From: Pirellulaceae bacterium
GTDB taxonomy: Bacteria > Planctomycetota > Planctomycetia > Pirellulales > Pirellulaceae
DNA: 64,000 nt
Reading direction: 5' to 3'
Assembly: GCA_026004795.1 (NCBI GenBank)
Contig: BPJV01000003.1
Span: 558,001 to 622,000, forward strand
Shown here: positions 2,810 through 64,000 of the stretch, piece by piece
Layout of the letters: each line of letters starts with the position of its first letter
Position numbering within the stretch: the stretch's first letter is position 1
The notes under the pieces: model-generated
The model's input: the letters and a program-made list of their open reading frames with translations, nothing else
Database searches by the model: none
What the model was told of the DNA's origin: nothing
Program-made: the position numbers and the translations under genes

Positions 2810-2875
2810 TAGATCAAACTCCCAACAAGATGCGTGGTGGTACAAGCGTAGTATTCAACTTAGCGATGCGTTCTT

Positions 2876-5207: not shown

Positions 5208-5296
5208 TTAATCCTCCTCTGCTGTTTAGGTAATGCACCTTCTACGGATGTCGATGCTCTCGACGGCCAGCAATTCGATCGCTAGCGGTCGATCGA

Positions 5297-6391
5297 CTAC
5301 CATTCGTCGCTTACCGTTTCACCGCCGTTGATCGACCCGACCGACATCCAGACAAGTTGATCGATGTTTTCGGATATGAACTTGACCGAACCATCGCACA
5401 GAACCGATTGCACACCACCGGTGTGATAACTGCTCGGCTCCTTGATATCGATGTCCGTTACCGATGCGTCACGGTCGCACGACGGTCCGGCATTGGGACC
5501 GATCAACGTCGTATGGTAGGGCCCCCAATAGACGCGTCCGGCTGCCCAGAATCGCCCTTGCTCATCGCTGGCGCCATCCCAGCCACTCCCCGCGTCGTAC
5601 ATCGACAAGCAGTTGTCATAATAAGCGCGGATCTGTGTTGCCTGGGCTGCTACCGCCTGCCAGATGCGTCCCTGAGCATTGGCGGCTTTCTCCAAGGGCG
5701 TACCGGTGACAACACGGTACGAGGGATCGCGGGGAAGCTGACCAGGCACCCACTGCCCTTGGTTCAATCCAATGCGCAATTCGGACATGGCGATCGAATT
5801 GCTGGTACCGTCGGTGATGTCGCGGATGGCAGTCCACACACTTAGTGTCGACAGGCCGGGCTTGATCGCCCCCACACTCCAACTGGAACTTGGTCCCGCA
5901 CTCATGGCGTACGAAACCGGTGCCATATCGGCCGTGTAATTCGCATTTGCCCCTCGGTCACTTGGACAAACGTAACTGGGTATCCGCGTGCGAGCCACCA
6001 CGGAGTTATTCACCGTTCCACCGTTGTTGTTCGCCCAACTGTAGCTGAAGTTCGCCTGATTGTAGAGGTTTCCCTGCTCCATGTAGGGCAACAGCATCGC
6101 TAGACCGCTCCACGCCAACCACGACTGGTTGTACCGGCCACCAACATTCTCCGTGACACCAGGACCAGGGTTAGCAGGAAACTTCTTGTGCGCCGATTCG
6201 TAATTGTGCAGCGCCAACCCCAGCTGCTTCAGATTGTTCGAACACTGCATCCGTCGTGCAGCTTCCCGCGCCGCTTGTACGGCGGGCAACAACAATCCCA
6301 CCAAAATCCCGATGATGGCGATCACCACCAACAGCTCAACTAACGTGAACCCACCCGATTTGCGGTTCACTCGATTCGCCCCGATGCGCAT
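5297..6391 (-). CDS. DUF1559 protein with prepilin-type N-terminus, copy 2
   Basis: The track ORF starts at 6496, but the ATG at 6391 (MRIGANRVNRKS) has AGGGAG just upstream and gives the short basic leader expected before GFTLVELLVVIAIIG. The product is 364 aa and aligns nearly end to end with copy 1: the same AAREAARRMQCSNNLKQLGLA segment, the same central blocks and the same CDGSVKF C-terminal signature. The prepilin peptidase motif implies membrane insertion and leader cleavage. It is the first gene of a two-gene unit with the 43-aa lipoprotein. Its role at the cell surface is not known. Confidence 0.93.
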   Translation of the reverse strand: MRIGANRVNRKSGGFTLVELLVVIAIIGILVGLLLPAVQAAREAARRMQCSNNLKQLGLALHNYESAHKKFPANPGPGVTENVGGRYNQSWLAWSGLAMLLPYMEQGNLYNQANFSYSWANNNGGTVNNSVVARTRIPSYVCPSDRGANANYTADMAPVSYAMSAGPSSSWSVGAIKPGLSTLSVWTAIRDITDGTSNSIAMSELRIGLNQGQWVPGQLPRDPSYRVVTGTPLEKAANAQGRIWQAVAAQATQIRAYYDNCLSMYDAGSGWDGASDEQGRFWAAGRVYWGPYHTTLIGPNAGPSCDRDASVTDIDIKEPSSYHTGGVQSVLCDGSVKFISENIDQLVWMSVGSINGGETVSDEW

Positions 6392-7127
6392 GGAACTCTC
6401 CCTAAAGTGAATGCGACCCGAACAGACACAGCTCAAGCTAAGAATGCCCACCGGCATTAGCTCATGACGAAAAGACTCAAGAGCATGCTGCCACACTCTT
6501 ACCTACCAACTCGCCCCAAGACCGCAGGCGCTTCTCACGGCCACAGCACGAGTTGATGGATCGAAAGAGTTAACACCTCACGTGGCAAAAAGTTTCTGGA
6601 GGGCAGTTCATTTAATATTAACTTCTGAACGTAGATTAACAAGATCCAGAAAACTGCATTTATTGCGGGATCTACCTACACCAGTCGTAATAAAACACTC
6701 GACAACCCATCTCAGAAAAAACTCTCCCCGCGGGCACTCCATCCTCCCCAAAAGGAGCCCTTCCGTTCTATGGACCACGAGCTCAGCGAGACGATCTCCA
6801 GTCGTTCGCGGAGCGTCACCGCACACCGGCTCAGCGCACCAACTCCTCCCCAGGACGCCACCGGCGTGAGCGAGCATTCCTAGACGCCCTTTGGAAAGGC
6901 TGGTCGAGGACGAGACGGTCAGGAAGTCGTTCGACATTCGGCGTCGATCAACGGCCGTACCACGCGAACGGCCCCTCGCCGCACGGGCAGCTATGGGACG
7001 ATGCCTATTGCGGTTGAAGCAAAAACGCTGGCCTTCCAACAGTCTGCACCAAGCCCCCTGACGCTAACGCAATGTGCCAGCCTCTTTGACCTTTTTGCCC
7101 CGCCGCCTGAAGAAAAACGCCGCGACA
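6392..7127. other. Intergenic region upstream of the second DUF1559 gene
   Basis: About 740 bp. Two overlapping ORFs on opposite strands (95 and 143 aa) show no domain, signal peptide or plausible ribosome-binding site, so I treat both as spurious. The region includes the presumed promoter and 5' leader of the DUF1559 gene and the 3' flank of the membrane protein gene at 7128. Confidence 0.55.
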
Positions 7128-9473
7128 TTACATTTGAGACAGGTAGAAATCGGCCAGGTCACGAAAAGGAGTAAACGGATCCCGGGCTAGACATTCCCGA
7201 AAAAAATTTCGGGATTCAGCAAGATCCCCAGATTCAATCGCCAGTTGCCCACAATAAAAAAGGAATTCGGCAACTAGGGCCGCAGGCATATCCCCATCCG
7301 CGGTCAGCTCCGCCGCAATTTTCCGACTCAGGTTGGCCGCATCATTCGGATTGGCTCCCATCAAAACACGAAAAAACCGCCAGCTTGGGGTGGGTTCTTG
7401 CTGATCGATAGCCTGCTGAGCACCCGTGAGGTCTCCGTTGATGATCAGGCGAACGGTATCCTGTTCGCCGCGTGAGGTTTCAGCAGCCGACTGAAGCTCT
7501 AACACCTGACCGGCAGCCTGAGCAAGCGCCATCTGCGCGCGGTCAAGACGATCCTTGGTTGAGGGAAGCAACGGTTCTTGCATTAACTCTTGGGTCAACC
7601 GCCCGGCACGGATCGAGTCCAGAATAGAAACGTGTCCCGAATAGCGCAACGTTCGGTGTGCCAATTCGAAGTAGGCGAGCGTTCGGGCTACTTGAACCTC
7701 ACGTGAAGAAGTATCGGGCAGTAGACGCAGCGCCGCCAGTGGCATCCGCATCGCTGTCAACACGTTGGCCACACGAACGGTATCCTGCGGTGCCCCCAAG
7801 GCCAAACTTCCCTCGAAATCGAGTTCTGCGGCGGATCGAGGAATCTCCAGAAAACTGAACAAAGACATGCAACGCAAGGCTTGGGCTACCGCCCGTGGAT
7901 CCGACGCAGTACCAAACAGAACCTCTTCGGCGTCGACCCCTACGATCTTCCAGTTGGAATCCAAGGTAACTTGCCGTATGGCCTGCTCGTCTTGGGCATC
8001 AAGCGCAATGAGAGACGGTTGCCAACGTTCGAAAACTGCCCCGTAGCCTCCCCAAGAGCCGTCGTGACGCAGATAGGCTTCGCGTTTCCACTCCTTCCAG
8101 TCCTGACTGACCGCCGCAAGTTGATCATACCACGGCGCATATGCCTCCCATCGGTCATTGACCAGTAAAGGAAAATGAGCAAGGAGTTCAGGAACCTGCC
8201 ACCGCGGCGTGTGGTCGAGATTTAAAAGCATCACCGGGCCGGGAGTGGCACTGAGCACTGGAGTAACGCGACGTTGGATCAGGTCAGCGGAAAGAACGGT
8301 CGTGCTATTCGTCACCACTTGATACAGCAGGCCCCCCAGGCCAATGCCTGCCCAAAGACTGCCTTGGTTTAGCCGGGGAAGAAGCGTCCTACCTGCCTCT
8401 CGATTACCATTCGCACCGTAGCGTCTGCCGTGGGCACCAGCAGCTAGAATCGCCCCCAGCCAACTGTAGTAACAACAGCCTACCACCAAGAGCGTGGCCA
8501 TCGACAGGACACCTGCATCCCATAGACGAGGAGGGTTATCCCGAAACAACCGCATCCACTGCCCCATGATGAACAGGAGCAAGATGCCATGCCACGCAGT
8601 GATCTGCCGCGTCTCCAGGTCCCACAATGCTGCAAGCGAAGGGAATAGTGAAGGAGGCGGTGACACCCACATCCAGCTCCACGGGCGCAGCAGCGTGGCC
8701 CCCATCCCCGGCACCAACAGCATCACCACGGCGATCGTGGCTACCCATGCCAACGCCCCAAAGGTCCGCTGGCCACGCAACGGGGAAGGCCCCGGTTTAT
8801 CGATCCGCCAAGTCAACAGCGCCAGCCCTAAGACGGCTAGAACCAACCCGTATTCAATGGTCACTGCGGCAGCCAATACCGATACTGCGACACACGCGGG
8901 CAGCATGAATCTGTGCAAGCCTGTCACCACAGGCTCTCCCTTCCCTTCCGATTGGCGAGGCAACTCCCCCCCTTTTTCCATAGCGTTCCCAATCTCGATG
9001 GCCAACCATAGCACTGCACCACCGAGTAACGCGCCCCGAGTGTTGAAATGGCTGAGCGTCCAAATGTAGGCGAAAACCACGGCTGGATGCATCCGCGTGG
9101 AAAGCCGACAAGCAATCCAGCCGTAAAGGAGGGCGGCCACGATAGCGAATTGCCAATAATGCCAATGGGTGGAATCAGCAACGAAGGGAAGCCATGCCAG
9201 TGGAGGGCTGTAGATATGGCCAGCCTCCAACACACTGCTATCGCGCACCGGCCAAACGGCGATCCGATCAGCAATCCAGAAGAGATTGGCGGATAACAAG
9301 CCACACAGCGACGCTACCCACCACCAGACAAATTCTCCCCACCGTGACTGCGGGGCGATCATCGAACTCCACCAACCGTGCCCATCGCCACTGGAGTGCT
9401 TGCTCGGTTGCTCCAGCGGGGATCGCTGCTTGGCGGAGCACTTTCGCGAAAGCCTTGACGACGATTTTCTCAT
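7128..9473 (-). CDS. Polytopic membrane protein with large soluble C-terminal region (GT-C-like / repeat-containing)
   Basis: A 781-aa protein. After a basic N-terminus, residues about 45-370 contain roughly nine or more hydrophobic segments rich in Trp and Leu. A soluble region follows, including a stretch (about 470-530) whose pattern, ending in NWKIVGVDAEEVLF, resembles the luminal tail of GT-C glycosyltransferases. The last 200 residues look helical and repeat-like, as in TPR proteins (LAESRNFFRECLARDP). Its ATG overlaps the TGA of the upstream cytochrome gene (ATGA), so the two are translationally coupled. I infer an envelope protein working with the cytochrome; no catalytic motif is certain, and a non-enzymatic role is equally possible. 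Confidence 0.65.
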   Translation of the reverse strand: MRKSSSRLSRKCSAKQRSPLEQPSKHSSGDGHGWWSSMIAPQSRWGEFVWWWVASLCGLLSANLFWIADRIAVWPVRDSSVLEAGHIYSPPLAWLPFVADSTHWHYWQFAIVAALLYGWIACRLSTRMHPAVVFAYIWTLSHFNTRGALLGGAVLWLAIEIGNAMEKGGELPRQSEGKGEPVVTGLHRFMLPACVAVSVLAAAVTIEYGLVLAVLGLALLTWRIDKPGPSPLRGQRTFGALAWVATIAVVMLLVPGMGATLLRPWSWMWVSPPPSLFPSLAALWDLETRQITAWHGILLLFIMGQWMRLFRDNPPRLWDAGVLSMATLLVVGCCYYSWLGAILAAGAHGRRYGANGNREAGRTLLPRLNQGSLWAGIGLGGLLYQVVTNSTTVLSADLIQRRVTPVLSATPGPVMLLNLDHTPRWQVPELLAHFPLLVNDRWEAYAPWYDQLAAVSQDWKEWKREAYLRHDGSWGGYGAVFERWQPSLIALDAQDEQAIRQVTLDSNWKIVGVDAEEVLFGTASDPRAVAQALRCMSLFSFLEIPRSAAELDFEGSLALGAPQDTVRVANVLTAMRMPLAALRLLPDTSSREVQVARTLAYFELAHRTLRYSGHVSILDSIRAGRLTQELMQEPLLPSTKDRLDRAQMALAQAAGQVLELQSAAETSRGEQDTVRLIINGDLTGAQQAIDQQEPTPSWRFFRVLMGANPNDAANLSRKIAAELTADGDMPAALVAEFLFYCGQLAIESGDLAESRNFFRECLARDPFTPFRDLADFYLSQM

Positions 9474-48592: not shown

Positions 48593-48943
48593 CTAGGAGC
48601 GGCGACGGTAGTACTGGCCCCAGAGGCCGGCGAGAACGAACAGCAGGCCGCTGCCGATCACGGCGCCGAGCGAACCGGCGACGAGGGGATCGCTACTAAG
48701 CAAGCGGGCGATCAGAATCGCGCCGATCAAGTATCCCAGTATTCCGCCAGCGGGAAGGGCGGCCAATTGGAGCAAATTGGTGACTGGATCGACGTTCAAC
48801 CAAGCGGGCGGCGGAAGCGGTGAGGGTGGCGGCGCGAGATGCTCGGCGTGCGTCGGCACATACGGGTTTTTCAACTGCGTCGCCCCGAGCGATGCATCGT
48901 CGTCGGGCCGGTCTTGATACGATTCAGCCTTGACTGGTCCCAT
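48593..48943 (-). CDS. Small two-helix membrane protein
   Basis: The ATG at 48943 (MGPVKAESYQDRPDDDAS) overlaps the 3' end of the exonuclease gene by 20 bp, giving a 116-aa product; the track ORF starts farther upstream. It has a hydrophilic, Pro-rich first half and then two membrane helices (LLQLAALPAGGILGYLIGAILIA and LGAVIGSGLLFVLAGLW) with a basic tail. No family is recognised. The overlap implies coupling to the exonuclease gene, though a functional link is not obvious. Confidence 0.6.
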   Translation of the reverse strand: MGPVKAESYQDRPDDDASLGATQLKNPYVPTHAEHLAPPPSPLPPPAWLNVDPVTNLLQLAALPAGGILGYLIGAILIARLLSSDPLVAGSLGAVIGSGLLFVLAGLWGQYYRRRS

Positions 48944-49784
48944 GGCTAGCGGTCGCGGGTGCGTCGGCCGGTTCGGTCCACGGGTTGTCCCAATCGCCCC
49001 AACGCTGGAGATACAACCGGTAACCGGCATGCTGATCAGCCTGCGCGGTCAACATGTTCTTCGCCTCGGCCACCAAATGCTGCTCGCGTTCCAGAGTCAA
49101 CTCGCCCGTTAACACCATGGTGCGCAGGAATACGAAATAGGAATCGAGGACGTCGCAGCGGCAGTACTCGCTGATCTCTTCCAGCCTGCCCTGTTGGTAC
49201 AGGTCGTAAACCATATCGCCCTGAATGTCCATCTTGCCGGGCTTGCCCAGGATCGAAGCGGCCAAGTTCAAACCGCCGCGAAACCAGGTGGCACCAAAGT
49301 TCGTCAGAATCTCTTGCAGGTCGATATGTGCCGACAGGTTGTAGCGGTTGCGGCATTGTTCGAACGAGCGGCCCTGCAGGTTGAACCACTTGGGAACGGC
49401 GATACCGTAGCGATACGCGGCGTGTTCCATCAGTGGCAAGTCGAAGGTGCGGCCGTTGAACGTCACCCAGGTCGGCTCCTGGTACTTTTCCCACCCCAAC
49501 CAGAAATGCCGCGTCATCACGTGTGGTCGATGCAAGGGGGCGTCGAGCGAGACGATGTCTTCTAGCGTCAGATCGTGGCGGACCTTGGCGATCAGGATGG
49601 CCACCGGAATGTGGAAGGTATAGGGAATGAAATCACGCCCTGAGGTGGTCAGCAACTCCTGGCGAAAACGTCGGATGGCCTGCTCGGGTGACAGCGATTG
49701 CCCCGGATACTTTGTACGGGCGATCAAATCCCCATCCGCCACGCTCTCCACGTCGAAGATAAAGTACTTGATGTCTTGATTCAC
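48924..49784 (-). CDS. Predicted 3'-5' exonuclease (DNA_pol_B_exo2-like, DEDDy)
   Basis: The GTG at 49784 (product beginning NQDIKYFIFDVESVADG) with GGAGAGG upstream is preferred over the track's 49814. The 286-aa product shows the DnaQ-like exonuclease motifs: FIFDVES (Exo I, D-x-E), WVTFNGRTFDLPLM (Exo II) and YCRCDVLDSYFVF (Exo III, DEDDy with Tyr). This matches PF10108, predicted PolB-like 3'-5' exonucleases without a polymerase domain. A role in DNA or RNA end trimming or repair is expected from the fold. It precedes the small membrane protein gene. Confidence 0.85.
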   Translation of the reverse strand: MNQDIKYFIFDVESVADGDLIARTKYPGQSLSPEQAIRRFRQELLTTSGRDFIPYTFHIPVAILIAKVRHDLTLEDIVSLDAPLHRPHVMTRHFWLGWEKYQEPTWVTFNGRTFDLPLMEHAAYRYGIAVPKWFNLQGRSFEQCRNRYNLSAHIDLQEILTNFGATWFRGGLNLAASILGKPGKMDIQGDMVYDLYQQGRLEEISEYCRCDVLDSYFVFLRTMVLTGELTLEREQHLVAEAKNMLTAQADQHAGYRLYLQRWGDWDNPWTEPADAPATASHGTSQG

Positions 49785-50050: not shown

Positions 50051-53000
50051 TTATGGCTTGTAAGAAGAGTCTGCGTCGCTTGTCAGCAAGTCGAGAATGG
50101 ATTCCAAGTCATCCTCCTCACGCGAGTCCGCGAGTACCGTATCTAATGCGACGACATCCACCGCGACAATGCGGTTGGCGTCGACGTGGCGCGCATGGTG
50201 CGACGGCAAACGGGAGAAAAGTACGTCGCGCCCATCCTGAGTGTTGGTGGGTGTGCGTTGGACATTCTGATGCTGCCGCGGCGCGGCGAGCGGCAGAATC
50301 CGTTCACGCCAACGAGGAATCGCACTATCGTGCGATTCCCAAGGGCCAAGACCAGCACCACTCCAGGCCTGCGCCTGATCCGCGGACGATGGACCAGCAA
50401 ACTCGGCAGTGAATTCCGCTTCACCGCCAACTCTTCGGTTCAAGTGATTGATGATCAGCAACGCGTCGAGTGGTTGCAGGTAGTCGTCACCCGTCGTGTC
50501 ATAGAACGGCGCTGGCAATGAACCTAATAACGAGGGACGCGGCAATGGGCGAGAACCATTACGGTTAATTGCGTTAATCACCAACAACACGTCCAATGGG
50601 GTTACGTAACTATCCTGGTTGACGTCCAAGCGGTTGACCGGATTCTGCCAACTCGCTGGAATCACCACAGCTCGCGTCCCCCAATTTCCGGGAATCTGCT
50701 CCAAACGATACCCTCCAGCCATGATGGTATTGACGTCGCCTGGCCATTCGAGCACGTTGCCGTCGTCGAGGATCGTCCCCATGGGCACTCCGTCCGGCAG
50801 ACTGATCATCCCGTTCGTCCAAGTGCTGTCGATCAATTCGATCAGCTCGATACCCGGAGACTTGCCCATCCGCCATCGCTCGTCTTTCGCTGTTAGCTGC
50901 ACGTCCACCGTTGCGCCGGTAACCTGGATCGAACCAAATCTCCCGGCATCGAATTGACCACGCAATCCGCTGCGGCGACCGTCGGTATAAGGCACCACGA
51001 CGATCGACTCGACGGGCCCCTCCACATGCAACCCCATAAAAACATCGTTCGCGACAATCGATTTCACACCGCCCGCTACGTGAATCGATCCCGGTGAATT
51101 GATGCGGCCGCCTTTGCACTGACCGGCATAACAGTACTCGCTGACGGCGATATCCACATCGCGGAATTGCGCGTCGGTCAATTCAATGCCGGCGTTCAAA
51201 TCGCCACCGGTAATCTGGATAGCATCAATGCTGCCGGCTTGAAGGTTGCCGTTCACGTCGCCGCCAAGAAGCAGCGTTGCGTGAGTCGTGGCCGTCACCG
51301 TGTTGATATGTGTGGCCGTCAGGTCGGCGTTCATCGTACCGGCCGAGACGGTGATCACATCGACCGTGCCAAGGACGTTGAGCGTTCCTGTCAGGTCTCC
51401 ATTGGTCACGGACAATTGCCCGCTGTCACCCGAACCGGGCCGATTCGCGGTTCCGACTTGGAAATGCGTCGGGGCAAAATCACCGTTGGCGAATGTCAAA
51501 TTGTCGAATCCGTTGCGCAGCGAGACGCCTCCCCGGAACTCACCCTGAATCAACCCGCTCCCCAGACTTTTCGCCCGGAGTTCGCCCGACAACCACGAGC
51601 CGGCGATTTGGAGGTTGCCGATTCGCTGGTCTGCCGAGATCGACACCCCGTCGGCACCGGGAGCCGTACCGAAGTTTCCGAAGGCCAGAATGGTAACCGG
51701 CGAGGACGCCGAATTCTGGATGTCGATGCGCCCGCGATCGATTCCCGTCGTGAGCACCGAACCGGTCACATCACCGTCCACATCCAACACACCTTCGAAA
51801 TGCGTGACCGTAGATAGATCGATCGACTCGATTCCGCCGTGCGACCGAACGACGACCGGCAGCGATTGGCCGGTGCCGTATCCGTTGCCGGACAACAGCG
51901 TGATATAAGTGTCATCAGGCATGGTATCGAACAACTCGATCACCACGGCGGGCTCCGGAGTGCCGCCGGGCGACACCACTTCCGGACCGATGCCGACCTG
52001 GACTTTTCCCGCACCGGTGATGTCCAAGTCGTGCGGCAAACGCTGATCCATGCGCTCGAGGAACCGGTTCAAATCGAACAGGAACTCATCGAGGGCGCCG
52101 TTCTTCTTGCCCAGCACTGACACGCTGTCGATTTGCATGTTCGGGTCGGTGGTCGCAATGCGGAAGGTGATTGGTTGGGCGAGAACTGGAAGTGTCATGT
52201 CATTCGCTTCGAACTCGCCGGGCAACGCGATTTCATATCGATCCCAATCATGATACGAGAGAGCCGGCGTGCTTTGCCCGCTGGTGGTGATTTCGTGGAA
52301 CGTTGTGCCGTCCAAACTCCACTGGAGCCTCCAGTCCGGCTGCCGGGACGTGGTGCGAGTGTAAAACCGGAACTCGGTCGGATCGTAGTTCAAGATGAGC
52401 GAACTTGGCTGGACGGTGAAGTCCCACGACGCTTCGGCACGCGGCGGCACCGCGATCCCCAGCGCATTGGAACCGCCGAGCCAGAAAAGGCCGTCCTCTT
52501 CAACGAGTCCGGGAAGTCCTCGCTTGGAAACGACGAGCTTGCCGAAATGATCAACGGGCGCGGGATCCATACTGTTGCGCAAGTCCTGGCCAAGGGGCGT
52601 GTAGTCTAAAGAGCCGGGCTGCGGGTCGTCGAACGTCCAGTGAGCGAGGGCGCCATAGGGAGCGGTCCAAAGTCCGGCCGGGTAATCATTGGGATCGGGC
52701 GGGTCGTCGTTTTGCAACGTCACGCTCATGGCCGTGACGCCTTGGAAAAGACTCGTATCGCTGCCGGCCGGGGGCGAGAAACTGTCGACGGTGATCGCGA
52801 TATGAAACTGTTCGTTGAGTGCTTCGAACAGGTTCGCGTCGGCAACGATGTCGATCTCAATGTACTTCGTGTCGGTCATCTGCGACGAGTCGACGGAAAA
52901 GTCAATCGGGCCCGTGGTCACGACGTTGTAATCGGAGCCCGGTTGAGCCGTGTCGGCGGTCACGTCGAAGCTCACTCGCACTGTTGTCGGCTGATCGGCA

Positions 53001-56000
53001 GCCGCCAAAGCTTGCAGGGTTACCGGAATGCGGATTCGCGTCGTTCCGTTGTCGCCTTCATGAATCACCACCTCCGGTCCGGCCAGCGGTGTTCCGTCGA
53101 CCAGCTCCGCGCTGGGTCCCAGATCGAGTCGGACTTGCCCTTCGGCCACTCCGCAATTGCCGCCTGGCAAATTGAACGTGCCTTGCAGCGCTCCGAATTG
53201 AACTTGCAAGCATCCTCCCGCGTCCAGCGAACCGCTCATGGCCGGATTTGTGCTGTCGCCCGCCGGTACGCCTGCCAGAAATCCCCAACCGGTGAAACTG
53301 CCCGTCGCTTGCGTTCCGTCAAAGGCAAAGCTTAAATCCCCGTGCGCTTCCAAAACGGCGGGTACGTTCGGCACGGCGTCGATGTGCACCTCGGCCGAGA
53401 GTGTGACATTGGTGACCGTTGGCAAACCGCTTAGATCCGGTGGCACTACAGTGAAACCACCGTTGAATGAAACGCCGAAAGCTCCCAACAGATTGCTGTC
53501 GCCGCGGATATTCGAGAAATGCAAAGCACCATCCGCGTCGACGCGTATCGACGCACTGGCGTGCTCCAATGAAAAACCGGGAATGATCAGTGTGGCATCA
53601 GACAGCTCGATCGACATCCCGGCCGTGGCGGGCCGCGTATCGAACAACAGCGAAAGTGTTCCGCCGTCGATCTTCACGGGCCAACTGCCGTCGGCGAGCG
53701 GGTTGTTGTCGCTTGGGGCGATCAACTGCATGTTGCCGAAGCCCCCCGTGTCGTCAGCGCCGAATTGAAAGGATGCCTCTTCCGAGCCGGGATTGCCCAA
53801 GGTCGTTTCGCGATAGGGCATCTCAAAGGTCAATCCCAGGAGGTTGACCGAGGCCCCCAATCCCATGGTCACGGTCGAACCACCGCCTGGTGCGGTTTCG
53901 CGCCGCAAGGTCAGTTGCACACCTTCGGCACCGGTTCCCGGCAGGAAGAATGCGGCCCCGGAAATCGCATCGGCTGTTCCCGTAGCGCTGAAATCGGGAA
54001 TCAGACCTGATTCGGGCAAGGAAATATTGAACGTGAAACTGCCGTCGGTGATCAATCCGGGAATGTCGATGTCGGCCAACAACTCCGCTCCGCCGCGGCG
54101 CATGATAAGCGGATCGGTCTCGTCATAGGAGTAGCCCGGCGAGTACACACGCATGCAACCGCCGTTATCGGTTCCCGTGCGAAGTTGCAACCAACCTGGT
54201 GTAGCCTCCGGATTATTCGGGTCAATCCCCATCAATCCGCCCACGCCGATGGCGGTTAAGAACCGGTTGAACTGGGCGGTCGCATTGACGACGGTGTGGA
54301 CGTTGGGAAGACCAAAAGCGGCGCAGGCGGCCGGCGCATTGCCGAGGATCACTTCGGCAGCCACGCGCGGGAGGCCGCCATCGAGTTGCTCGTCGCCGTC
54401 GTCGCCGGCCGTAGGCAGCACGCGATCCCCCACAGCTTGCCGCACGCCGTCGTTGTTCAGGTCGATAAACACTTCGCCTTGAGGATCGAATCGGCCGTTC
54501 TTGTTCAGGTCGACCCATTCCTGCTCGGTGTAAACACCATCGCCGTTCAGATCCGTCCAGGGCTCGGGAAGGTCGATCTGCCCGTTGCGGGGATTCGTGT
54601 CTTCATACTCCCAGTACTCGGCGACACCGTTGCGATTCAAGTCGCTCCAAGGATCCCCCGAATCCCAGCGGCCGTTCTTGTTCAAATCTTCGAACGGCTC
54701 GGCGGCATCGACCACCCCGTTTCCGTTCTTGTCGTTCCACACTTCACCCGGATCCCATAAGCCGTCGCCGTCGAAATCACCGCCCAATGCGTCCCAAGTG
54801 CCGTTGCCGTTCCAGTCTTCCAGCGGTTCTCCCGGCTGCCACTGGCCATCACCGTTCGTGTCCTCAAACGGCTCGGGTGCGAACGGCTCGGCCAGATTGA
54901 ACCCAGGCGTGCCGTTGATCTCTTCATACTGTTCGGCGGCGCTGGAATTCAGGTCGACGAGAAAACGGGTTTCGAGTCCGAGGAAGTCGCCGATAATCTC
55001 CAACTGTTCGCCGCGGCCGATCACCAGCGCTTCGCCGAGGTCGACTCCCAAGAGTTTGCCGGTTGTGGCATCCGGATTGCCGGGCACACTTTCCACGCTG
55101 CCGTACTGGCCGAAGAGGTAGCCGTCGGTCGCCCACTTCTCGCTAAGTTGGTCTCCCAACTCGGCAGCTCGCCCCGTCAGCCGAGCGACCAGCTCAGCCG
55201 GCGGCAGACCGACCAGCTCGTCAAGCCCGCCGAGCTCTTCCACGACGGGTGTCAGTAGATCGGGGACGAACAACTGAAGCTGAGCGACCTGCTGCTGAGC
55301 CGTAATCGCACCGGGAACTTCAGTCAAGAATCGCAGGAAGGCAAACGTCTCGTCCGGATGGGCGATCACGCACGAAATCGTATCGTCGCACTGCTGGCCA
55401 AGGCCTTGCATGTGCGCCAAGAGATCGTTTTTTACTTCATTGAAAAGGTCGACCGGTTCGGTCAGGAACCGCGGCAGAGTCAGCCGGCCGTCCAGCAGGA
55501 TGCCGCCACCCTGGATCTTGTCCCAGTTGGTCCGACCGCTGTCGTCGGGCAACTGCGGATCAACGTAGATCTTGCCGCTGCCCAGCTGACCCGGATCGGT
55601 TACGAGCAGATGTTCGGTTTCCTTCAAGTATCGGGCGCCTGTCGTGGCCGTGTTGTCTTCCAACACCACGTCGCCGGGGAACATCAAGCCTTGCACTTGG
55701 GCCAATTCCAAGCCATAGAGGTCCACCGTGCCGCCCAGACCCGCGAACCAAGGTGAAGGACCGCTGAAATCGATTTCCGGAATCCGATTGAGAAACAGGT
55801 CCTTGAACAAGTTGGTGAACGGGACATGGACATTGACGTTCGTGATGTCGGACATGGGGGAGACCGGCAGCGTGCCTTGAGTGGCAATTCGCATGAGTTG
55901 CTCGATCAACCGCACTTGGGCATCGATGTCGATTCGCGTCTTGTCGATCCGCACGTGAACTCGCTCGCGCGGCGGTCCGATCGGGAAGCCCAGGATGACG

Positions 56001-58492
56001 GGCTGGACGTAGCCTTCGATCGAGAAACTGGGATTCATCACATCGAAAAAGGCGTTGGTTGCCTCTTCAGCCGCACTGCCAAGGGTCGAAAAGATGACCG
56101 ACGCGATCGCTCCAGCCATCCGGGCCGACTTCTCCATCCGCGTGCGTGATTCAATGAGGCTGTCGGCCAGAGACAAGCCGGAGCTGTCGGGCTCGATCGA
56201 ATCGACGAGGCTGACTAACTGAGTGAAATGCGTATCGGCCAAGGCGGTCGCCCGTTCGACCCCTGCCACGAACAAACGCTGAATCAGTTGATCGAGCTGC
56301 GGAATTCCGGTGGTGAACAGTTGCGGGTCCCAATCCACATCCAATTCCGGCGCCACTTGCATCAAGTCGGTCAGCAATTTGCCGGCAGCCATTACACCTA
56401 ATTGGAAAGTCTCTGAATCAATGCTCCCTGGTGTCAGCAAGTCGGCAATCGAAGGGATCGCTGCTGGAACCTGGCTGCCACCGAGCATTCGGTTTTTCAG
56501 GAATGCCGTGTCGATCAACGTCTCCGAAGCACTGCCAAGCTCATCGCCAGGGCCGCCCTCGTCGAGTTGTCGATTTTCGTTTAGATCGAGCAAGAACTTG
56601 AAGAAGGCCGGACGTTGGCGCTCGCGGTCGACGGCCTGTTGGGCCGCGGTGATCAAACTGTCGAACACCGAGGAGTTGCCGTTGAGTGCCTTGAGTCGTT
56701 CCAGTCGAGCGACTTCAGCCTCCAGGATCGCAAGTTTACCAATGTACGCGAGGCGCTCGTTTTCGTACCGCCTAGCAACCAGCCCGAGTGCTTGATCCAA
56801 ATAGGTGTTGCTTTCGTTGGCAATGGTCTCCAGAAACGCGCGCGCGGCAATCGCGGTGCCGGCCGCCAGTCCATCGGTGTCGAATTGAGCGCCGATGCGG
56901 GCTTGCATCGGAAGCAGTAGTGACAGTAAGCCACCGGTGCCCGGGATTCCCGCCGCTACATTGATACTTGGATTGATGGGGTCGCTGGAGTCGAACACGA
57001 TGTCCGCCTGCGCGAGCGACTGGCCCAGGATCTCGACATCTCCGCGAACGAATACTTGAGCCTTGGACTGGGAAAGTGCTTCGAGCGTTGCCGCATCGTA
57101 ACCAACGTTCATTCCCACCGTGACCCGCCCGCCGATGGCGTTGTACAGATTCGTATTGGTGAGCACGCCGCTAACGACTAAGCGGAATCCTTTGTTCCAT
57201 GTGAATGTTGGCTCGTATTGATTCTTATTAACGATCCGCGTGATGGCAGCTTCGATCTCCGACGGTGAGAGGTTTTTTGGGCGGGCGAATTCGGGACGCG
57301 CGAGGATGTCGATCGGATTGGCCACTTCCTCGATTGGTGGCGCGTCGAAGACCAGAGCTCCTTCTAAGCCCTCGATGACGAAACCGGTCTGATTGCCGAT
57401 CTGGTAGCCGGCCGCGGCACCGATTCCGAAAAACGCCGCACCAACCCCGGCGCCAACGATGCCTCCAATTGGAATCGGCACACCCGATTTCAACCGCACC
57501 AGGACAGGACCATATTGCGTGATGACCAGTTCCGCACCAATTCCCACGTTGCCTGCCGATAACTCGCCTTGCACTTGAGCGTAAAGAACTTGACGGTGCT
57601 CGGAGTTGTCGAGTTGGACGTCCTGGACACCAAGGGTCAAGCCGCCTCCGATAGAAACCGGCCCCAGTTCGAAGGGCTCCATGCCGATCGATACTCCGTT
57701 GACGCTCGAAACGTCGAAAGGCAGCGGACACGTCTCGCTGCCGATCAAGGCGGGATGGGTTGCGCACGAGTTCGAAACGTATCTTGCCAGTTCGGCCAGT
57801 TTGATTTCCAACTTCTTGATTTGAGCGCGGATCGGCCAACCCCCTTCGCTCGATTCAAGCCCGCCGCTGACGATCAGCCGATAGTTGCGCGGGTCGACCA
57901 GTTCCTGAAACGGCGTGAGGGAATCCGAGCCGAGTTGATCAAGCGTTAAATCAAAATCGTCGCCTGTCCCTTCCGCACCCTTGAAGCGAATGCCGACTTC
58001 CGTGACATGCAACGGGAACCAATCGGGTAGTCCAAAAACATTGCCCCCCGGAACTCCCGAATCTTCGTCGATGGCGACACGGAAGAACGCGCCGATCGTC
58101 TCGTCAAAATCCAGCGTCGCCGGATCATCGACTGGTTCGGCTGCCATGACGAACACACGTTGCAAATCGGCACTAATGCCGAATCCGCCAGCTTCAAAGG
58201 TAAGTCCTTTGATCGAATCGGGCGCGGCCTCTTCAACCCGTACCCCGGCTTGGCGCAGAATAAAGTAAGGTTCGTTCGCTGCGGCGTCCGTATTCACCTG
58301 GGCCCGTCCGAATATCGTGAAGTAATCGCCCAGGGGAATTTCCACCATGCCGGTGTCAAACGACTCCAATGAGGCCTGGAACGACAAATCGAACGGCTGC
58401 GCTGGCGTGGCACGATTAGCCAGGACGGTATTGAACCGGGCGTAGCCTTGGTCCACGCCGAACCAGCTTGTGTCGACCGACGCCTCGACCAC
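50051..58492 (-). CDS. Giant secreted calcium-binding dockerin-like protein, C-terminal part (after in-frame TGA)
   Basis: A 2813-aa ORF from a GTG with no signal peptide. The frame is open for 13 more codons upstream, up to the TGA at 58532, so I treat it as the distal part of the gene that continues to the right edge. At about 1200-1357 it has ten D-x-N-x-D/N-G loops (DTNGDGQW, DLNKNGRW) like thrombospondin type 3 or EF-hand calcium sites. A Calx-beta-like segment lies at about 1800-1915, and beta-strand repeats at about 2230-2530 (GRIDIQNSAS, IGNLQIAGSW). A dockerin type I-like pair (DVNQDSYVTPLDVLLVINAINR, DTTGDDYLQPLDALLIINHLNR) is near 2617-2690. Planctomycete dockerin-like repeats may act in surface attachment; the ligand is unknown. 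Confidence 0.82.
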   Translation of the reverse strand: MVEASVDTSWFGVDQGYARFNTVLANRATPAQPFDLSFQASLESFDTGMVEIPLGDYFTIFGRAQVNTDAAANEPYFILRQAGVRVEEAAPDSIKGLTFEAGGFGISADLQRVFVMAAEPVDDPATLDFDETIGAFFRVAIDEDSGVPGGNVFGLPDWFPLHVTEVGIRFKGAEGTGDDFDLTLDQLGSDSLTPFQELVDPRNYRLIVSGGLESSEGGWPIRAQIKKLEIKLAELARYVSNSCATHPALIGSETCPLPFDVSSVNGVSIGMEPFELGPVSIGGGLTLGVQDVQLDNSEHRQVLYAQVQGELSAGNVGIGAELVITQYGPVLVRLKSGVPIPIGGIVGAGVGAAFFGIGAAAGYQIGNQTGFVIEGLEGALVFDAPPIEEVANPIDILARPEFARPKNLSPSEIEAAITRIVNKNQYEPTFTWNKGFRLVVSGVLTNTNLYNAIGGRVTVGMNVGYDAATLEALSQSKAQVFVRGDVEILGQSLAQADIVFDSSDPINPSINVAAGIPGTGGLLSLLLPMQARIGAQFDTDGLAAGTAIAARAFLETIANESNTYLDQALGLVARRYENERLAYIGKLAILEAEVARLERLKALNGNSSVFDSLITAAQQAVDRERQRPAFFKFLLDLNENRQLDEGGPGDELGSASETLIDTAFLKNRMLGGSQVPAAIPSIADLLTPGSIDSETFQLGVMAAGKLLTDLMQVAPELDVDWDPQLFTTGIPQLDQLIQRLFVAGVERATALADTHFTQLVSLVDSIEPDSSGLSLADSLIESRTRMEKSARMAGAIASVIFSTLGSAAEEATNAFFDVMNPSFSIEGYVQPVILGFPIGPPRERVHVRIDKTRIDIDAQVRLIEQLMRIATQGTLPVSPMSDITNVNVHVPFTNLFKDLFLNRIPEIDFSGPSPWFAGLGGTVDLYGLELAQVQGLMFPGDVVLEDNTATTGARYLKETEHLLVTDPGQLGSGKIYVDPQLPDDSGRTNWDKIQGGGILLDGRLTLPRFLTEPVDLFNEVKNDLLAHMQGLGQQCDDTISCVIAHPDETFAFLRFLTEVPGAITAQQQVAQLQLFVPDLLTPVVEELGGLDELVGLPPAELVARLTGRAAELGDQLSEKWATDGYLFGQYGSVESVPGNPDATTGKLLGVDLGEALVIGRGEQLEIIGDFLGLETRFLVDLNSSAAEQYEEINGTPGFNLAEPFAPEPFEDTNGDGQWQPGEPLEDWNGNGTWDALGGDFDGDGLWDPGEVWNDKNGNGVVDAAEPFEDLNKNGRWDSGDPWSDLNRNGVAEYWEYEDTNPRNGQIDLPEPWTDLNGDGVYTEQEWVDLNKNGRFDPQGEVFIDLNNDGVRQAVGDRVLPTAGDDGDEQLDGGLPRVAAEVILGNAPAACAAFGLPNVHTVVNATAQFNRFLTAIGVGGLMGIDPNNPEATPGWLQLRTGTDNGGCMRVYSPGYSYDETDPLIMRRGGAELLADIDIPGLITDGSFTFNISLPESGLIPDFSATGTADAISGAAFFLPGTGAEGVQLTLRRETAPGGGSTVTMGLGASVNLLGLTFEMPYRETTLGNPGSEEASFQFGADDTGGFGNMQLIAPSDNNPLADGSWPVKIDGGTLSLLFDTRPATAGMSIELSDATLIIPGFSLEHASASIRVDADGALHFSNIRGDSNLLGAFGVSFNGGFTVVPPDLSGLPTVTNVTLSAEVHIDAVPNVPAVLEAHGDLSFAFDGTQATGSFTGWGFLAGVPAGDSTNPAMSGSLDAGGCLQVQFGALQGTFNLPGGNCGVAEGQVRLDLGPSAELVDGTPLAGPEVVIHEGDNGTTRIRIPVTLQALAAADQPTTVRVSFDVTADTAQPGSDYNVVTTGPIDFSVDSSQMTDTKYIEIDIVADANLFEALNEQFHIAITVDSFSPPAGSDTSLFQGVTAMSVTLQNDDPPDPNDYPAGLWTAPYGALAHWTFDDPQPGSLDYTPLGQDLRNSMDPAPVDHFGKLVVSKRGLPGLVEEDGLFWLGGSNALGIAVPPRAEASWDFTVQPSSLILNYDPTEFRFYTRTTSRQPDWRLQWSLDGTTFHEITTSGQSTPALSYHDWDRYEIALPGEFEANDMTLPVLAQPITFRIATTDPNMQIDSVSVLGKKNGALDEFLFDLNRFLERMDQRLPHDLDITGAGKVQVGIGPEVVSPGGTPEPAVVIELFDTMPDDTYITLLSGNGYGTGQSLPVVVRSHGGIESIDLSTVTHFEGVLDVDGDVTGSVLTTGIDRGRIDIQNSASSPVTILAFGNFGTAPGADGVSISADQRIGNLQIAGSWLSGELRAKSLGSGLIQGEFRGGVSLRNGFDNLTFANGDFAPTHFQVGTANRPGSGDSGQLSVTNGDLTGTLNVLGTVDVITVSAGTMNADLTATHINTVTATTHATLLLGGDVNGNLQAGSIDAIQITGGDLNAGIELTDAQFRDVDIAVSEYCYAGQCKGGRINSPGSIHVAGGVKSIVANDVFMGLHVEGPVESIVVVPYTDGRRSGLRGQFDAGRFGSIQVTGATVDVQLTAKDERWRMGKSPGIELIELIDSTWTNGMISLPDGVPMGTILDDGNVLEWPGDVNTIMAGGYRLEQIPGNWGTRAVVIPASWQNPVNRLDVNQDSYVTPLDVLLVINAINRNGSRPLPRPSLLGSLPAPFYDTTGDDYLQPLDALLIINHLNRRVGGEAEFTAEFAGPSSADQAQAWSGAGLGPWESHDSAIPRWRERILPLAAPRQHQNVQRTPTNTQDGRDVLFSRLPSHHARHVDANRIVAVDVVALDTVLADSREEDDLESILDLLTSDADSSYKP

Positions 58493-58531
58493 CCAATCCA
58501 GATCCAGCTTCGTATCGGTATAGCTGGTTCC

Positions 58532-58534
58532 TCA
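58532..58534 (-). other. Single in-frame TGA splitting the giant gene
   Basis: On the minus strand the frame reads SVSEGTTI-TGA-GTSYTDTKLDLDW and then straight into the GTG (Val in the continuous reading) at which the track's downstream ORF begins. The TGA is the only stop in 4,649 codons before the final stop at 50051. One base change from CGA, GGA, TGG or TGC would restore the frame. It could be a nonsense mutation, an assembly error or a read-through site. Confidence 0.85.
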
Positions 58535-61500
58535 GATCGTCGTGCCTTCCGAAACGGAGATCTGGCCTACGGCCGACGCCCGGACGCTGTTGTTTTCATT
58601 GGGACGCGTGTCGCGCAGCGTAAAGGTACCGGCGATATCGCCGTCCCAGCTCCCGTTGACAAACTTCCCCAAGTACAACGCACCGTCGGCAGCAACCGAT
58701 GTGGCGGGAATCGGTACGTTGCGGGCACCGATGAAGATGGGGCCGAGTTCGGTGAACATCAGTTGCCGGTCGGGATTGAGCAACGACGAAGCCTCGACTT
58801 CCACCTGAACAAAACCGTTTTCACAGAGGGTTAATCCTTGAACGTCAGGAAACTCGTTGGAATCGATTTCAGGCCAGTTGATGACCGTGCCGCTCGAGCA
58901 ACTTTGTTGATCGGGTCGGCCAATCGCCAGGATCGGATCAAAGGGCAACGCCGCAAAGAACCCTCGCTTCTTGGGCTTCCCATCTTGCATGACGACGTTG
59001 CCGTCCTCGTCTGTTTCATACAAGTTAAATTGTGCGTCGACGCTAAGTTTGAACGTGTCCAGTTGGTTCGTATCAGGAAACTCAAGGTGGACGTTTTCGA
59101 CCGTCAGTGGCAAGAGATCTCGCAGGTTGAATTCGTCCAGCCCCTGGCCGACTGGTAGATCGAAGCCTACCGCCTGGCCGAAGGCGAAGGCAGCGTCGCG
59201 CACGATTTGGCCTGCATCGATCTCAGGCCGCTTCAGTGCCAGCAGCGGAACGTCGTCATCGGGATTCGTATCTTGAATTTGGAACGGTTCGTCGCCGAAG
59301 AACGGTACGGTGATGCCGACGCCACCCGCCTGGAGAAGATTCGGACCACCGGCCAAATCGATCTTTCCGTCATAGATTTCAAGGAAGACGACGTCTTTGA
59401 TACCGGCAGAGAAGCGTTCAGCCCCAAGGGCCAGGCCATCTGTACTCAATGTTCCAAACCCACCCTCGATGGCCACCAGGCCTTCTGGTGAATTGGGGTC
59501 GTCCGGGTATAGCGGTGTGCCGCCGTCGCTGACTTCGTACAACAACGCATCGAGGTCGGAAACGCCGATTTCAGCCGCAACGCTAGTTGGAGGACCCAAG
59601 ATGTCCTGCTGATTGAAACGCACGTCCAATTCAGCCGCCAGGCGCGCTCGGGAAACCAGCAGCCAGTCGCCCAGTCGGACCTCGGTCGGCTTGCCCGTCA
59701 GGATACCATTTTCTACTCTCCACACGCCTCGCTCCACTTGCCAGGGATCAGCGGGCGTGCTGGTGAGCGGATCCTGAGCCAACTCGACATAGGTGCCGGA
59801 TGCTGCCTGTTTGGCAAAGACGCGGTAATTCTGGAACTGGGCCGAGCGGGTGGACGCGGCCAGCCCGGCAAGTCCTCCGGCGAAACTGCTCGAAAACTGA
59901 TAGTTTGCTTGTACGTTAAACCCGCCTGTGCTCAATTGGCGACCCACGCGCACCTGGCCGCCGTTCCACTCGACGCGCATCCGGATCATCCCGGAGACTC
60001 CCGCCAACTCTTCAGCGTTACCATTGGCCAGAACGGTCCAGCGCGGCTCGCTCGAGCCCACGTTGCCAGAGGAACCGCCCGCTTCCACCAATTCAAACTG
60101 ACCAATAACCCACCGTTTGCCGAACTCGGTCGTGTTTTCGAGCCCCGCGAACTTGAACCGATCCGGCGACTGGTAATCAAAGATCATCATTCCGCCGAGT
60201 TGCCCGTCGACGTCTACTTCGATCGCCCCGATGGTCGGTACCGCCTCTCTGCGAGTTAACACGGCATCCGCACCGATCTCGGTCACGACCTCGGCATGCA
60301 GTCCTTGGTTGTCCACCTGAGCTTGAAAGCCGATTTCGGTTGGAACGCCCTCTTGCAAGCTGTACGGGATCAACAATCGGCCTTGCAACTGAGCGTCGAA
60401 ATTGAATTCGGTGTCGACGGAAAAGGCCAGCCCCGTATCGCGCAGCTCAAATCCCTCGATCTCGGCCGTCACTCCCGTGTCCACGGGCTTGGGCGGTTGG
60501 ATGGTGATGCTGTAATAGGGATTGCGGCCGCCGGCGTCGTCCGACACACGCAGGTAATAGACGCCGGCCGGTTGCCCCAAGAGCGAAACACGAGCGCGAT
60601 CGCCGAACGCCAAAGCGTCTCCACGTACGAATACGACCGACCGCCCGCCGGTGGCCGAGTCAACGGTCTCGCGATACAGTTCCAGGTCCAAGTCGCCCCG
60701 CTGCCGCGCGAAGTCGACTTGCACGTAGCTGGTCGGTGTGCCGCGCGATGTGATTTCGAAACGGAACCAATCGGCGGCATCGCGCAAGGCCAAGGGAACT
60801 ACGGTCAATTTCTGGTTGGGGATTCCCAGGTCGCCTGGCCCGCCGACAAGCAACTGATGGTAGTCGCCCAAGAATTCGTGAACGTCGTCCTTTTCCTGTC
60901 CGTTTACCGTAATGGTTTGCGTCTTGAGCGCTTCAGCCAATTGCGGGTCGATGTTGAGATCCAGCGTTCCCGTTCGCAACTCGAACACGGTGGGCAGATC
61001 GGCGCCTTCCGGCGGGCGGTCGGCGGGCGCGATCGTATCAAGTGACGGTTTGAAAACGGCTCCCGCCAGCGGCAGAGACAAGCTCGGATCGGTAGCGCCG
61101 CTGCCCGCTTCGCTCACACCCGGTATTTTCGCATTGGCAGCGAGCATCAATTGGAACGAGTCGAGCGGGTTGCCGTCAAAACCGACTTGCAGATGCTGCA
61201 ACTGATCGAGATGGCTCAACCGAAGCTTTCCATCAGCGGGCGCCACGTGGCTCCAATCAGCTTGGACTTTGGTCGTGAGATACCCTTCGCCATGTTCCAA
61301 GGTCAGGATTCCGTCGAACAGTTCGAGCTGAGCGTCGATATGGGCGGCAATCCCAAAACGCGCTCCCATGTCGGTTACCGGCCGCTGTTGGGGTTCCGAT
61401 TTGGCGGTGCGATCCGGCCGCGTGCGGATGTAGAAGGAATCGTTGGATGAATCGAGTCCGAACACGATCTGGCCGGTCAGTTCCGGGCGATCCACGGAGG

Positions 61501-64000
61501 CCGTGCCGGAGAATCCTTCGGGCAACAGATCAGTGAAGTCGGCGGCCAGCAGGGTGGGCGAGAGGATGGCCGATATGGCGTTCAGATCAAAACTGAACTC
61601 GATCAAGTTCTTGGTTTCCGCCGGCGGACCGTTCTGCAGCCAGTCCAGAACCTCGGACAGGCTGATCGTGTCGACGACGTCGAAGGCGCCGATCGCGGCA
61701 TCCAGCAATCCGCCCGCGTATCCGGCAGCCCGATTGAAGCTGCCGCCGAGCGACGGGAACTGGATGTCTTCCATTCCGAAACTCGAACCCACGCCCGAAC
61801 CGGCCGCATCGCCGTCGCCCAGCGGCGTGGTCAACGAGTCGAATTGCCGAGTGATCCAGCCCCACAGCGAATCATCGCCGGTTTGCCCGACAGTGCCGGC
61901 CGGTGTGTTTTCGTAGGTGATCGTGATCTCGGTCGACTGTCTTTCGCCGGCAATGATGGTCGTCAGTTGGATGGTCTGGCTTCCGTCTTCTCCTGGCGGG
62001 GGCGTGTATAGGAATCGGTCCCCCTGCTGGCCGTCTCGCTGCAGCGTTCCTTTGGCGGGCGCCGCGAGTTCGGCGGTAACCTGTTGGCCTGTCAGCCGGC
62101 CCGTCCCCTGATACAACTCGCCGCGGATCACTGCCTGCTCGGGCGTATCGACATGACTGCTGACGCTCAGCTCCTTCGACCAGGCGTTATCGTTTTCAGA
62201 GGCTTTCTTGGCAGCCCCATCAAACCGATACTCGGCCGGCAACTTGATCTTCCGCCGCCAGTCGTAAATCGTCCCGTACTCCGAGTCGGAAGCCAGGACA
62301 TCGACGACCAATTCGGTGGCGTTCGGACCCAAGCGGATGCCGTTCACATAATGCCCATTGGGAGCCAGTCGCTTCAGTTCACCGTCCTGTTCGCTTAACA
62401 TGCCGTTGAACGGAACGACATCGACGACGACCGGGTGGCCGCTCATCGTGGCGGCCTGGACCTTGCCCGTGCCCGTCCCGCCGGCTCCGGGATCGGCGTC
62501 CCACAGATAGTAATTTGCGTTGACGGTGAGCAACGCGTTGGTGGCGGGACCGTCCAGCAGCACCTCGTCGATTTTCAGTTCGTAGCCAAGCCGGCTTAAG
62601 ATGGCGTTGAAACTATACGATTCGTCGTTGATGTCGCTGCGATCAAATCCCATATGCTCAGCCTGGGCCGCCCAACGCAGCAGGCGGCGTGCGCCATCGG
62701 CCGACGGCGCTTCGCCCACACGATTGGGGTCCGGGTCCCAAATCAACTGGATCAACGCTTCCACAACCTGACGGTATTTCGTCCGCAGCGTGTCTTCCAA
62801 TGGCCCCTGCGGGAACAACTCGTCCACCCCCAAGAACTCGTTGGCGGCACGCCATCGGGCGTATTCGGTGAGGGTGGTTTCCAGCGTGTCGATCGACAAC
62901 TCGTCCACGCGCTTCTGCAATCCCACCGGCTCGTCGGGACCTGCCAAGCCGGCATTGAGCCAATACTCTTGGGGGGCCTTGAGTAGTTGCGGATCGATAT
63001 TCAAATCGAAGTCAAACTCCGCCATGGGCCCTAGGTCGATCACGGCCTGGCCGACGATTTCGCCCACTCGCGCTTCCGCTTCCGTTTGCGCGGCGGAAAA
63101 CGCGGTAACGGTCGCGGCACCGTCGTCAGTCGACTGATGCGGAACGCGGATCGAGCGGCTGCGGACGCCGTCCTGGTCGCGATAAGCAAACGCAATGACG
63201 ATGTCGCCGGTCTGTTTCACATTTGGCGATACAACAAACCGTACGATGCCGCTCTCGTTGGTTACGTAGAACAGCTCCGTTTCGGCCGCCGGACCGTGAA
63301 TGGCGGTGAACACCGTTTGATGCGCAGCCGGTGCGGGGCCGCGCGTCAATCGCAGCTCCACCAAAAGTTCTTCGCCGTCCACGAGTGTGGGCGCAGTGGT
63401 CGAAAGCGCGCCCGGTCCGTCACTGACCTTCGCCACACGGATGTCCATCACCGGTGCGCCTTCCAACAGGACGCGCTGCTCGGCGAACGTGATGAAACTC
63501 CCTTGCTCGGCGATCGTGGACGCGTTCCAAGAAACGACGGCATCGACCTCGATGACCTCCTCACGCGTATCCATCGGTATCGTATGGCGAAAATAGCCAT
63601 CCGCGTCCGTTGCGCCGGTTATCAAGTCAGTGGAGCTTCCACCGACAGGAGTTACGGCCACGGTTAATCCCTCGACAAACAACAACTCTTCAACACCCTC
63701 GACGCGGATACCGGCGCGCATCTGGAATTTCGCCGATGTGGTGCTCGTTCCGTTGGGCTTCAAAAAGGTCTCGTCGCGGCTGGTAGAAATCTCGGGAATG
63801 TAGCAAAGGGCGTCGCGGATTTCTTCGAGTGTGGACGGCGCGCGCTTGAAGACTTCGAGGATGCGCCCGGCCGTGTAATATTCCAACGCCTCCTCGCCCT
63901 CTTGTACCAATCGCCTGAGCAACTCGACACGGTACTCTCGCTGCTGCTCCGTGCCGCTGGGGGCCGCCTTGTACTCGTCGGCTCGTGCCACGCATCGGTC
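58532..64000 (-). CDS. Giant secreted protein, N-terminal part (open at right edge, ends at in-frame TGA)
   Basis: The track's GTG at 63991 is internal; the frame is open to the window edge. It spans at least 1822 codons. Beta-sandwich segments precede a cadherin-like repeat near 614-697 (QVTAELAAPAKGTLQRDG, FLYTPPPGEDGSQTI). A PPC-like domain follows near 1067-1164 (DWFRFEITSRGTPTSYVQVDFARQRGDLDLELYRE, GVYYLRVSDDAGGRNPYYSI). Later come a region like LamG or a jelly roll and several Asp/Gly-rich beta segments. No catalytic motif is seen. It ends at a TGA, after which the same frame continues directly into the 2813-aa ORF. The N-terminal signal peptide must lie beyond the window. Confidence 0.8.
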   Translation of the reverse strand, partial: DRCVARADEYKAAPSGTEQQREYRVELLRRLVQEGEEALEYYTAGRILEVFKRAPSTLEEIRDALCYIPEISTSRDETFLKPNGTSTTSAKFQMRAGIRVEGVEELLFVEGLTVAVTPVGGSSTDLITGATDADGYFRHTIPMDTREEVIEVDAVVSWNASTIAEQGSFITFAEQRVLLEGAPVMDIRVAKVSDGPGALSTTAPTLVDGEELLVELRLTRGPAPAAHQTVFTAIHGPAAETELFYVTNESGIVRFVVSPNVKQTGDIVIAFAYRDQDGVRSRSIRVPHQSTDDGAATVTAFSAAQTEAEARVGEIVGQAVIDLGPMAEFDFDLNIDPQLLKAPQEYWLNAGLAGPDEPVGLQKRVDELSIDTLETTLTEYARWRAANEFLGVDELFPQGPLEDTLRTKYRQVVEALIQLIWDPDPNRVGEAPSADGARRLLRWAAQAEHMGFDRSDINDESYSFNAILSRLGYELKIDEVLLDGPATNALLTVNANYYLWDADPGAGGTGTGKVQAATMSGHPVVVDVVPFNGMLSEQDGELKRLAPNGHYVNGIRLGPNATELVVDVLASDSEYGTIYDWRRKIKLPAEYRFDGAAKKASENDNAWSKELSVSSHVDTPEQAVIRGELYQGTGRLTGQQVTAELAAPAKGTLQRDGQQGDRFLYTPPPGEDGSQTIQLTTIIAGERQSTEITITYENTPAGTVGQTGDDSLWGWITRQFDSLTTPLGDGDAAGSGVGSSFGMEDIQFPSLGGSFNRAAGYAGGLLDAAIGAFDVVDTISLSEVLDWLQNGPPAETKNLIEFSFDLNAISAILSPTLLAADFTDLLPEGFSGTASVDRPELTGQIVFGLDSSNDSFYIRTRPDRTAKSEPQQRPVTDMGARFGIAAHIDAQLELFDGILTLEHGEGYLTTKVQADWSHVAPADGKLRLSHLDQLQHLQVGFDGNPLDSFQLMLAANAKIPGVSEAGSGATDPSLSLPLAGAVFKPSLDTIAPADRPPEGADLPTVFELRTGTLDLNIDPQLAEALKTQTITVNGQEKDDVHEFLGDYHQLLVGGPGDLGIPNQKLTVVPLALRDAADWFRFEITSRGTPTSYVQVDFARQRGDLDLELYRETVDSATGGRSVVFVRGDALAFGDRARVSLLGQPAGVYYLRVSDDAGGRNPYYSITIQPPKPVDTGVTAEIEGFELRDTGLAFSVDTEFNFDAQLQGRLLIPYSLQEGVPTEIGFQAQVDNQGLHAEVVTEIGADAVLTRREAVPTIGAIEVDVDGQLGGMMIFDYQSPDRFKFAGLENTTEFGKRWVIGQFELVEAGGSSGNVGSSEPRWTVLANGNAEELAGVSGMIRMRVEWNGGQVRVGRQLSTGGFNVQANYQFSSSFAGGLAGLAASTRSAQFQNYRVFAKQAASGTYVELAQDPLTSTPADPWQVERGVWRVENGILTGKPTEVRLGDWLLVSRARLAAELDVRFNQQDILGPPTSVAAEIGVSDLDALLYEVSDGGTPLYPDDPNSPEGLVAIEGGFGTLSTDGLALGAERFSAGIKDVVFLEIYDGKIDLAGGPNLLQAGGVGITVPFFGDEPFQIQDTNPDDDVPLLALKRPEIDAGQIVRDAAFAFGQAVGFDLPVGQGLDEFNLRDLLPLTVENVHLEFPDTNQLDTFKLSVDAQFNLYETDEDGNVVMQDGKPKKRGFFAALPFDPILAIGRPDQQSCSSGTVINWPEIDSNEFPDVQGLTLCENGFVQVEVEASSLLNPDRQLMFTELGPIFIGARNVPIPATSVAADGALYLGKFVNGSWDGDIAGTFTLRDTRPNENNSVRASAVGQISVSEGTTI

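Follow-up and report, generated by a model that had tools for sequence, protein, structure and literature searches.

A planctomycete draft genome carries a broken giant surface-protein gene, two frames of which, separated by a single in-frame TGA, are strongly supported by uninterrupted homologues in three relatives as pieces of one huge secreted-protein gene, and the TGA that splits them most likely reflects ordinary damage or an error in the sequence, with no role in read-through. The window, meaning the whole 64,000-nucleotide stretch that we analyzed, covers positions 558,001 to 622,000 of contig BPJV01000003.1 (C3, 735 kb), and the gene extends beyond it into the adjoining segment L003 (C3:622001-640000). 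The sequence-only reading had described minus-strand ORFs at 58532-63991 and 50051-58492 in a common reading frame, with a TGA at 58532-58534 followed by 39 open bases (58493-58531) and a GTG. We found all of these elements in place, and the claim of a gene of at least 4,650 codons agrees with the ~4,650 codons that we measured when reading through the TGA from the window end as far as 50051. The locus is made up of the following features:

48924..49781, minus strand: exonuclease-like protein, the left neighbor, at the left edge of a ~23-kb insertion.
50051..58531, minus strand: C-terminal piece of the giant gene downstream of the TGA; its 2,826 sense codons end in a stop, and it is collinear with residues 5136-5788 and 8778-8939 of G023 and residues 4238-4844 and 7881-7971 of G035.
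58532..58534, minus strand: the splitting in-frame TGA, at an alanine column in relatives G023 and G035, both open there.
58535..64000, minus strand: window part of the middle piece, collinear with G023 residues 2557-5083, its frame continuing to C3 624,123.
L003:2123-6880, minus strand: upstream piece of the giant gene, joined to the middle piece by a frameshift.

Coding signal, as measured by codon-usage score and GC content by codon position, is unbroken on either side of the TGA. Scanning the whole of C3 for stop pairs in one frame returned the TGA at 58532 as the only case with frames of >700 codons on both sides; same-frame stops with coding sequence on either side number 12 in the 735-kb contig, and most of them resemble ordinary operon neighbors.

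We searched 149 genomes of the family with a 1,200-residue query spanning the TGA and obtained matches in four other genomes, three of which hold the match in one very long open frame: 8,995 codons in G023 (SKKK01000662.1, Planctomycetaceae bacterium CSSed162cmA_153), 8,071 codons in G035 (BPJU01000003.1, Pirellulaceae bacterium KatS3mg110) and 9,596 codons in G116. Across the TGA, both G023 and G035 align collinearly with no internal stop, and the spacing around the TGA in G023 agrees to one residue. Comparison of orthologues at this position, a check put forward in the sequence-only reading, thus returns a sense codon, alanine in both. The upstream, middle and distal pieces align in order to G023 residues 743-2595, 2557-5083 and 5136-5692, and the G023 alignment also spans the frameshift. 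G023 and G035 share with the window gene collinearity over most of its length at ~25-30% identity overall and up to 34% locally, together with a C-terminal dockerin-region match. The relatives differ from it in having N-terminal beta-helix repeats, of the PMP type in G035 and of the NosD type in G116, as well as N-terminal choice-of-anchor Q domains, all of which are missing in the window copy. We infer that the products of the intact relatives are secreted and serve as adhesin-like or surface proteins. In G035, a long frame with a kinase-like N-terminus, recognized by eye, lies directly upstream of the giant gene and on its strand (L031:15131-20245).

The distal product carries three features of a secreted protein that the sequence-only reading had named:

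50438..50626, minus strand: dockerin type I domain near the C-terminus, residues 2636-2698 of the distal product (PF00404, E 2.7e-6).
52769..53002, minus strand: weak Calx-beta-like segment (PF03160, E 4.9e-4).
54542..54859, minus strand: tandem Asp/Asn-rich loops of the D.NGNG.W.. type, read from the translation.

The C-terminal dockerin was borne out by the Pfam match, while the Calx-beta assignment holds only in part, with a match that is present but, at 20.5 bits, lies under the curated cut-off of 27. The Asp/Asn-rich loops are visible in the sequence as described and are probably calcium-binding, although the repeats gave no significant match to Pfam EF-hand models. In the upstream piece, a subtilase-like domain of the S8 type (L003:4300-5400) is probably inactive because glycine replaces the expected catalytic serine (GTG, compared with GTS in G035).

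The sequence-only reading had offered, if the TGA is real, a young nonsense mutation with no decay visible; as stated this is not supported, because the gene is not complete apart from the TGA and decay does appear in the few kilobases beyond the window edge. The giant gene runs on past the window end, and at L003 ~2122 (C3 624,123) it has a frameshift, found independently by codon usage and by homology, where the upstream frame stays open for 486 nt past the site, the downstream frame is open for 243 nt before it, and homology to G023 passes through. Farther upstream the gene stops abruptly at L003 ~6870-6890 (C3 ~628,870-628,890), with no start and no signal peptide. Past this junction it is the antisense strand that codes: a Ser/Thr kinase domain finishes there, and a transmembrane-like segment and TPRs come after it; the kinase homology begins at the junction, and the fragment is without the first part, roughly two thirds, of the kinase domain. 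Where a start codon and N-terminal export signal would stand, the 5′ end of the giant gene is therefore fused antisense to a kinase fragment. The disabling lesions total three (the TGA, the frameshift at C3 624,123 and the 5′ deletion), and ~6,940 codons are left in the gene. No orphan N-terminal kinase half was found among the 36 kinase matches of the assembly, and a search of the rest of the assembly for the missing giant N-terminus, with G116 residues 897-2084 as query, returned no match, an empty result that is weak evidence. Candidate kinase loci on contigs C1 and C10 were rejected, the former being an unrelated locus with its own frameshifted kinase and the latter a PP2C-kinase gene without breaks, and a local inversion was rejected as the source of the head-to-head truncation, the partner junction that it predicts, with the giant N-terminus joined to the kinase N-half, being absent from the translated frames of the next few kilobases.

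Comparison of gene order with other members of the genus places the broken gene within a discrete segment. In 11 same-genus genomes, the exonuclease-like gene lies 150-350 bp from an M20-type peptidase gene, often with a PIG-L-type deacetylase gene next, as here; in our contig the M20-type peptidase gene begins at C3 631,133, 23 kb away from the exonuclease-like gene. The intervening sequence, from window position 49782 to L003 9135 (C3:607,782-631,135), is occupied by the giant gene and the kinase fragment alone. Because the left and right flanks are neighbors in the 11 sister genomes, the contig is not grossly chimeric. Gene order marks the 23 kb as a lineage-specific insertion into a conserved junction. 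A search for direct or inverted repeats at its edges found one 9-bp match only, at chance level. For the 14 remaining genomes of this genus, the matches listed include no giant-gene homologue and consist of common dockerin-region matches only, an absence that is as expected of a mobile, dispensable island.

We favor, at somewhat better than even probability, the explanation that the locus holds a real 5′-deleted remnant of a giant surface-protein gene in which the TGA and the frameshift are ordinary lesions or errors. An inserted 23-kb segment, flanked by the exonuclease and M20-type peptidase genes, would have carried the giant gene and a Ser/Thr kinase gene back to back, and a deletion across what looks like the promoter region between these divergent genes would have cost the giant gene its start and signal peptide and the kinase the first part of its domain, leaving neither fragment a start of its own. 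Such a deletion would explain the head-to-head truncation simply, and we infer that it took place in the genome and is no product of a mis-join. The two point lesions, a frameshift at C3 624,123 and a TGA at 58532, would then be ordinary disabling lesions added to the 5′ deletion, one or both of which may be errors of the draft sequence, with no ribosome recoding in play. A counterpoint to the remnant is that codon usage and GC3 are normal throughout, with two point lesions only in ~20.8 kb, and any decay, if real, would therefore be very recent. A further counterpoint is that the draft error rate alone would lead one to expect about 0.4-0.6 frameshifts in the giant gene.

We prefer the 5′-deleted remnant over the possibility, to which we give distinctly less credence, that the living organism has an intact gene and that all three lesions (TGA, frameshift and 5′ fusion) arose as errors in the draft, which is probably long-read-based. 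The draft is indeed rich in frameshifts. A codon-usage frame model identified 11 solid frame switches in C3, or 19 per Mb coding, and a 400-kb part of contig C2 had 9, or 29 per Mb; when 400 kb was taken from each of two same-genus genomes, the model found 1 switch in G001 and 2 in G006, or 3 and 6 per Mb, respectively. Homology revealed 3 split genes in 128 kb aligned here versus 0 in 121 kb of relatives. The only AcnA aconitase is split mid-model at C3:509,019 (L081:7431-10155), with model positions 3-511 and 511-886 falling in successive frames, and the single other aconitase-family match is a 476-aa frame whose length fits LeuC. NqrB is frameshifted at C3:721,240 (L087:387-1731), HsdR at C3:645,943 (L075:4934-7013) through an indel in a short G run, and a Ser/Thr kinase at C1:769,330-769,935 (L072) by two opposite shifts close together. 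A second internal stop, an in-frame TAA in a DUF3800 gene (C3:644,099; L075:4099), lies ~20-30 kb from the giant gene and next to the frameshifted HsdR gene. Since joint loss of AcnA and NqrB is unlikely biology, a good part of the frameshifts in the draft are probably sequence errors, and fragmentation of genes through errors is known from long-read assemblies (Kastor, PMC12007338). The caveat of assembly error raised from the sequence alone was thus well placed. However, the change at the TGA is a clean one of the substitution type that preserves the frame on either side, whereas the errors seen are mostly indels; the loss of the 5′ end would need an extra mis-join or collapse, though the flanks are in their conserved place. 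A count of internal stops by homology against G001 and G006 was discarded as uninformative, the matches resembling antisense shadow frames. Elsewhere in the contig, two frame switches lie 260 bp apart at C3:366,127 and 366,390 (L070:5995-6411) in another giant gene, with FG-GAP-like repeats.

Programmed recoding, in which ribosomes would pass the TGA or insert selenocysteine there and so yield the full-length protein, is very improbable. Selenocysteine was tested because the genome encodes SelB (332 bits, cut-off 242; C1:407,498-409,357), SelD (239 bits, cut-off 125; C8:121,279-122,157) and tRNA-Sec (77.9 bits, cut-off 47; C6:102,282-102,373), all over cut-off, from which the organism probably makes selenoproteins; the continuation of coding signal past the TGA is likewise in line with recoding. 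Pairing of Sec with Cys is a search criterion for bacterial selenoproteins (PMC1088965), but neither residue occurs at the TGA column, which is alanine in both G023 and G035; nor is the TGA conserved. The hairpin that follows the TGA is no stronger than in shuffled sequences (z -0.3 to -1.5) and fits poorly, with a 12-nt loop that begins ~10 nt after the TGA and has no G in its first two positions. Rfam returned two chance-level matches only at the TGA, none at the gathering score. Ordinary stops in the contig are most often TGA (248 of 513), and the frameshift and lost start in the same gene would still block a full-length product. The earlier suggestion of programmed or tolerated read-through accordingly finds support in no test, be it the alanine column, the hairpin or Rfam, and we hold it equally improbable that the UGA is tolerated or read through at a low level so that truncated and full-length surface proteins are both made. 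Two separate genes sharing a frame by chance, for which the GTG 39 bases past the TGA could speak, are just as hard to credit, given that the distal frame begins inside homology that crosses the TGA in G023 and G035, that G023, G035 and G116 each have one open frame, and that no signal peptide is seen by eye after the GTG, as the sequence-only reading had also stated.

For annotation, both frames should be merged into a single broken giant gene, and the assembly needs a frameshift-rich mark before its gene splits count as biology. With the 5′-deleted remnant as the preferred explanation, the locus appears to be a small example of a lineage-specific 23-kb giant-surface-gene insertion at a conserved junction, with little import beyond annotation. 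The draft, judged here from its assembled sequence, resembles the case of Kastor (PMC12007338) in that many genes of a single assembly, core genes included, show frameshifts and premature stops. The giant surface-protein gene is itself of a kind long known in Planctomycetes, which, as described in PMC5177795 (citing Reva and Tummler 2008), carry giant genes of >5 kb and in some cases >20 kb. In contrast to the genes described there, the window copy is 5′-deleted, frameshifted and interrupted by an internal stop, and it shares with them its size, its phylum, a long modular domain array, a probable surface role and a very patchy distribution among relatives.
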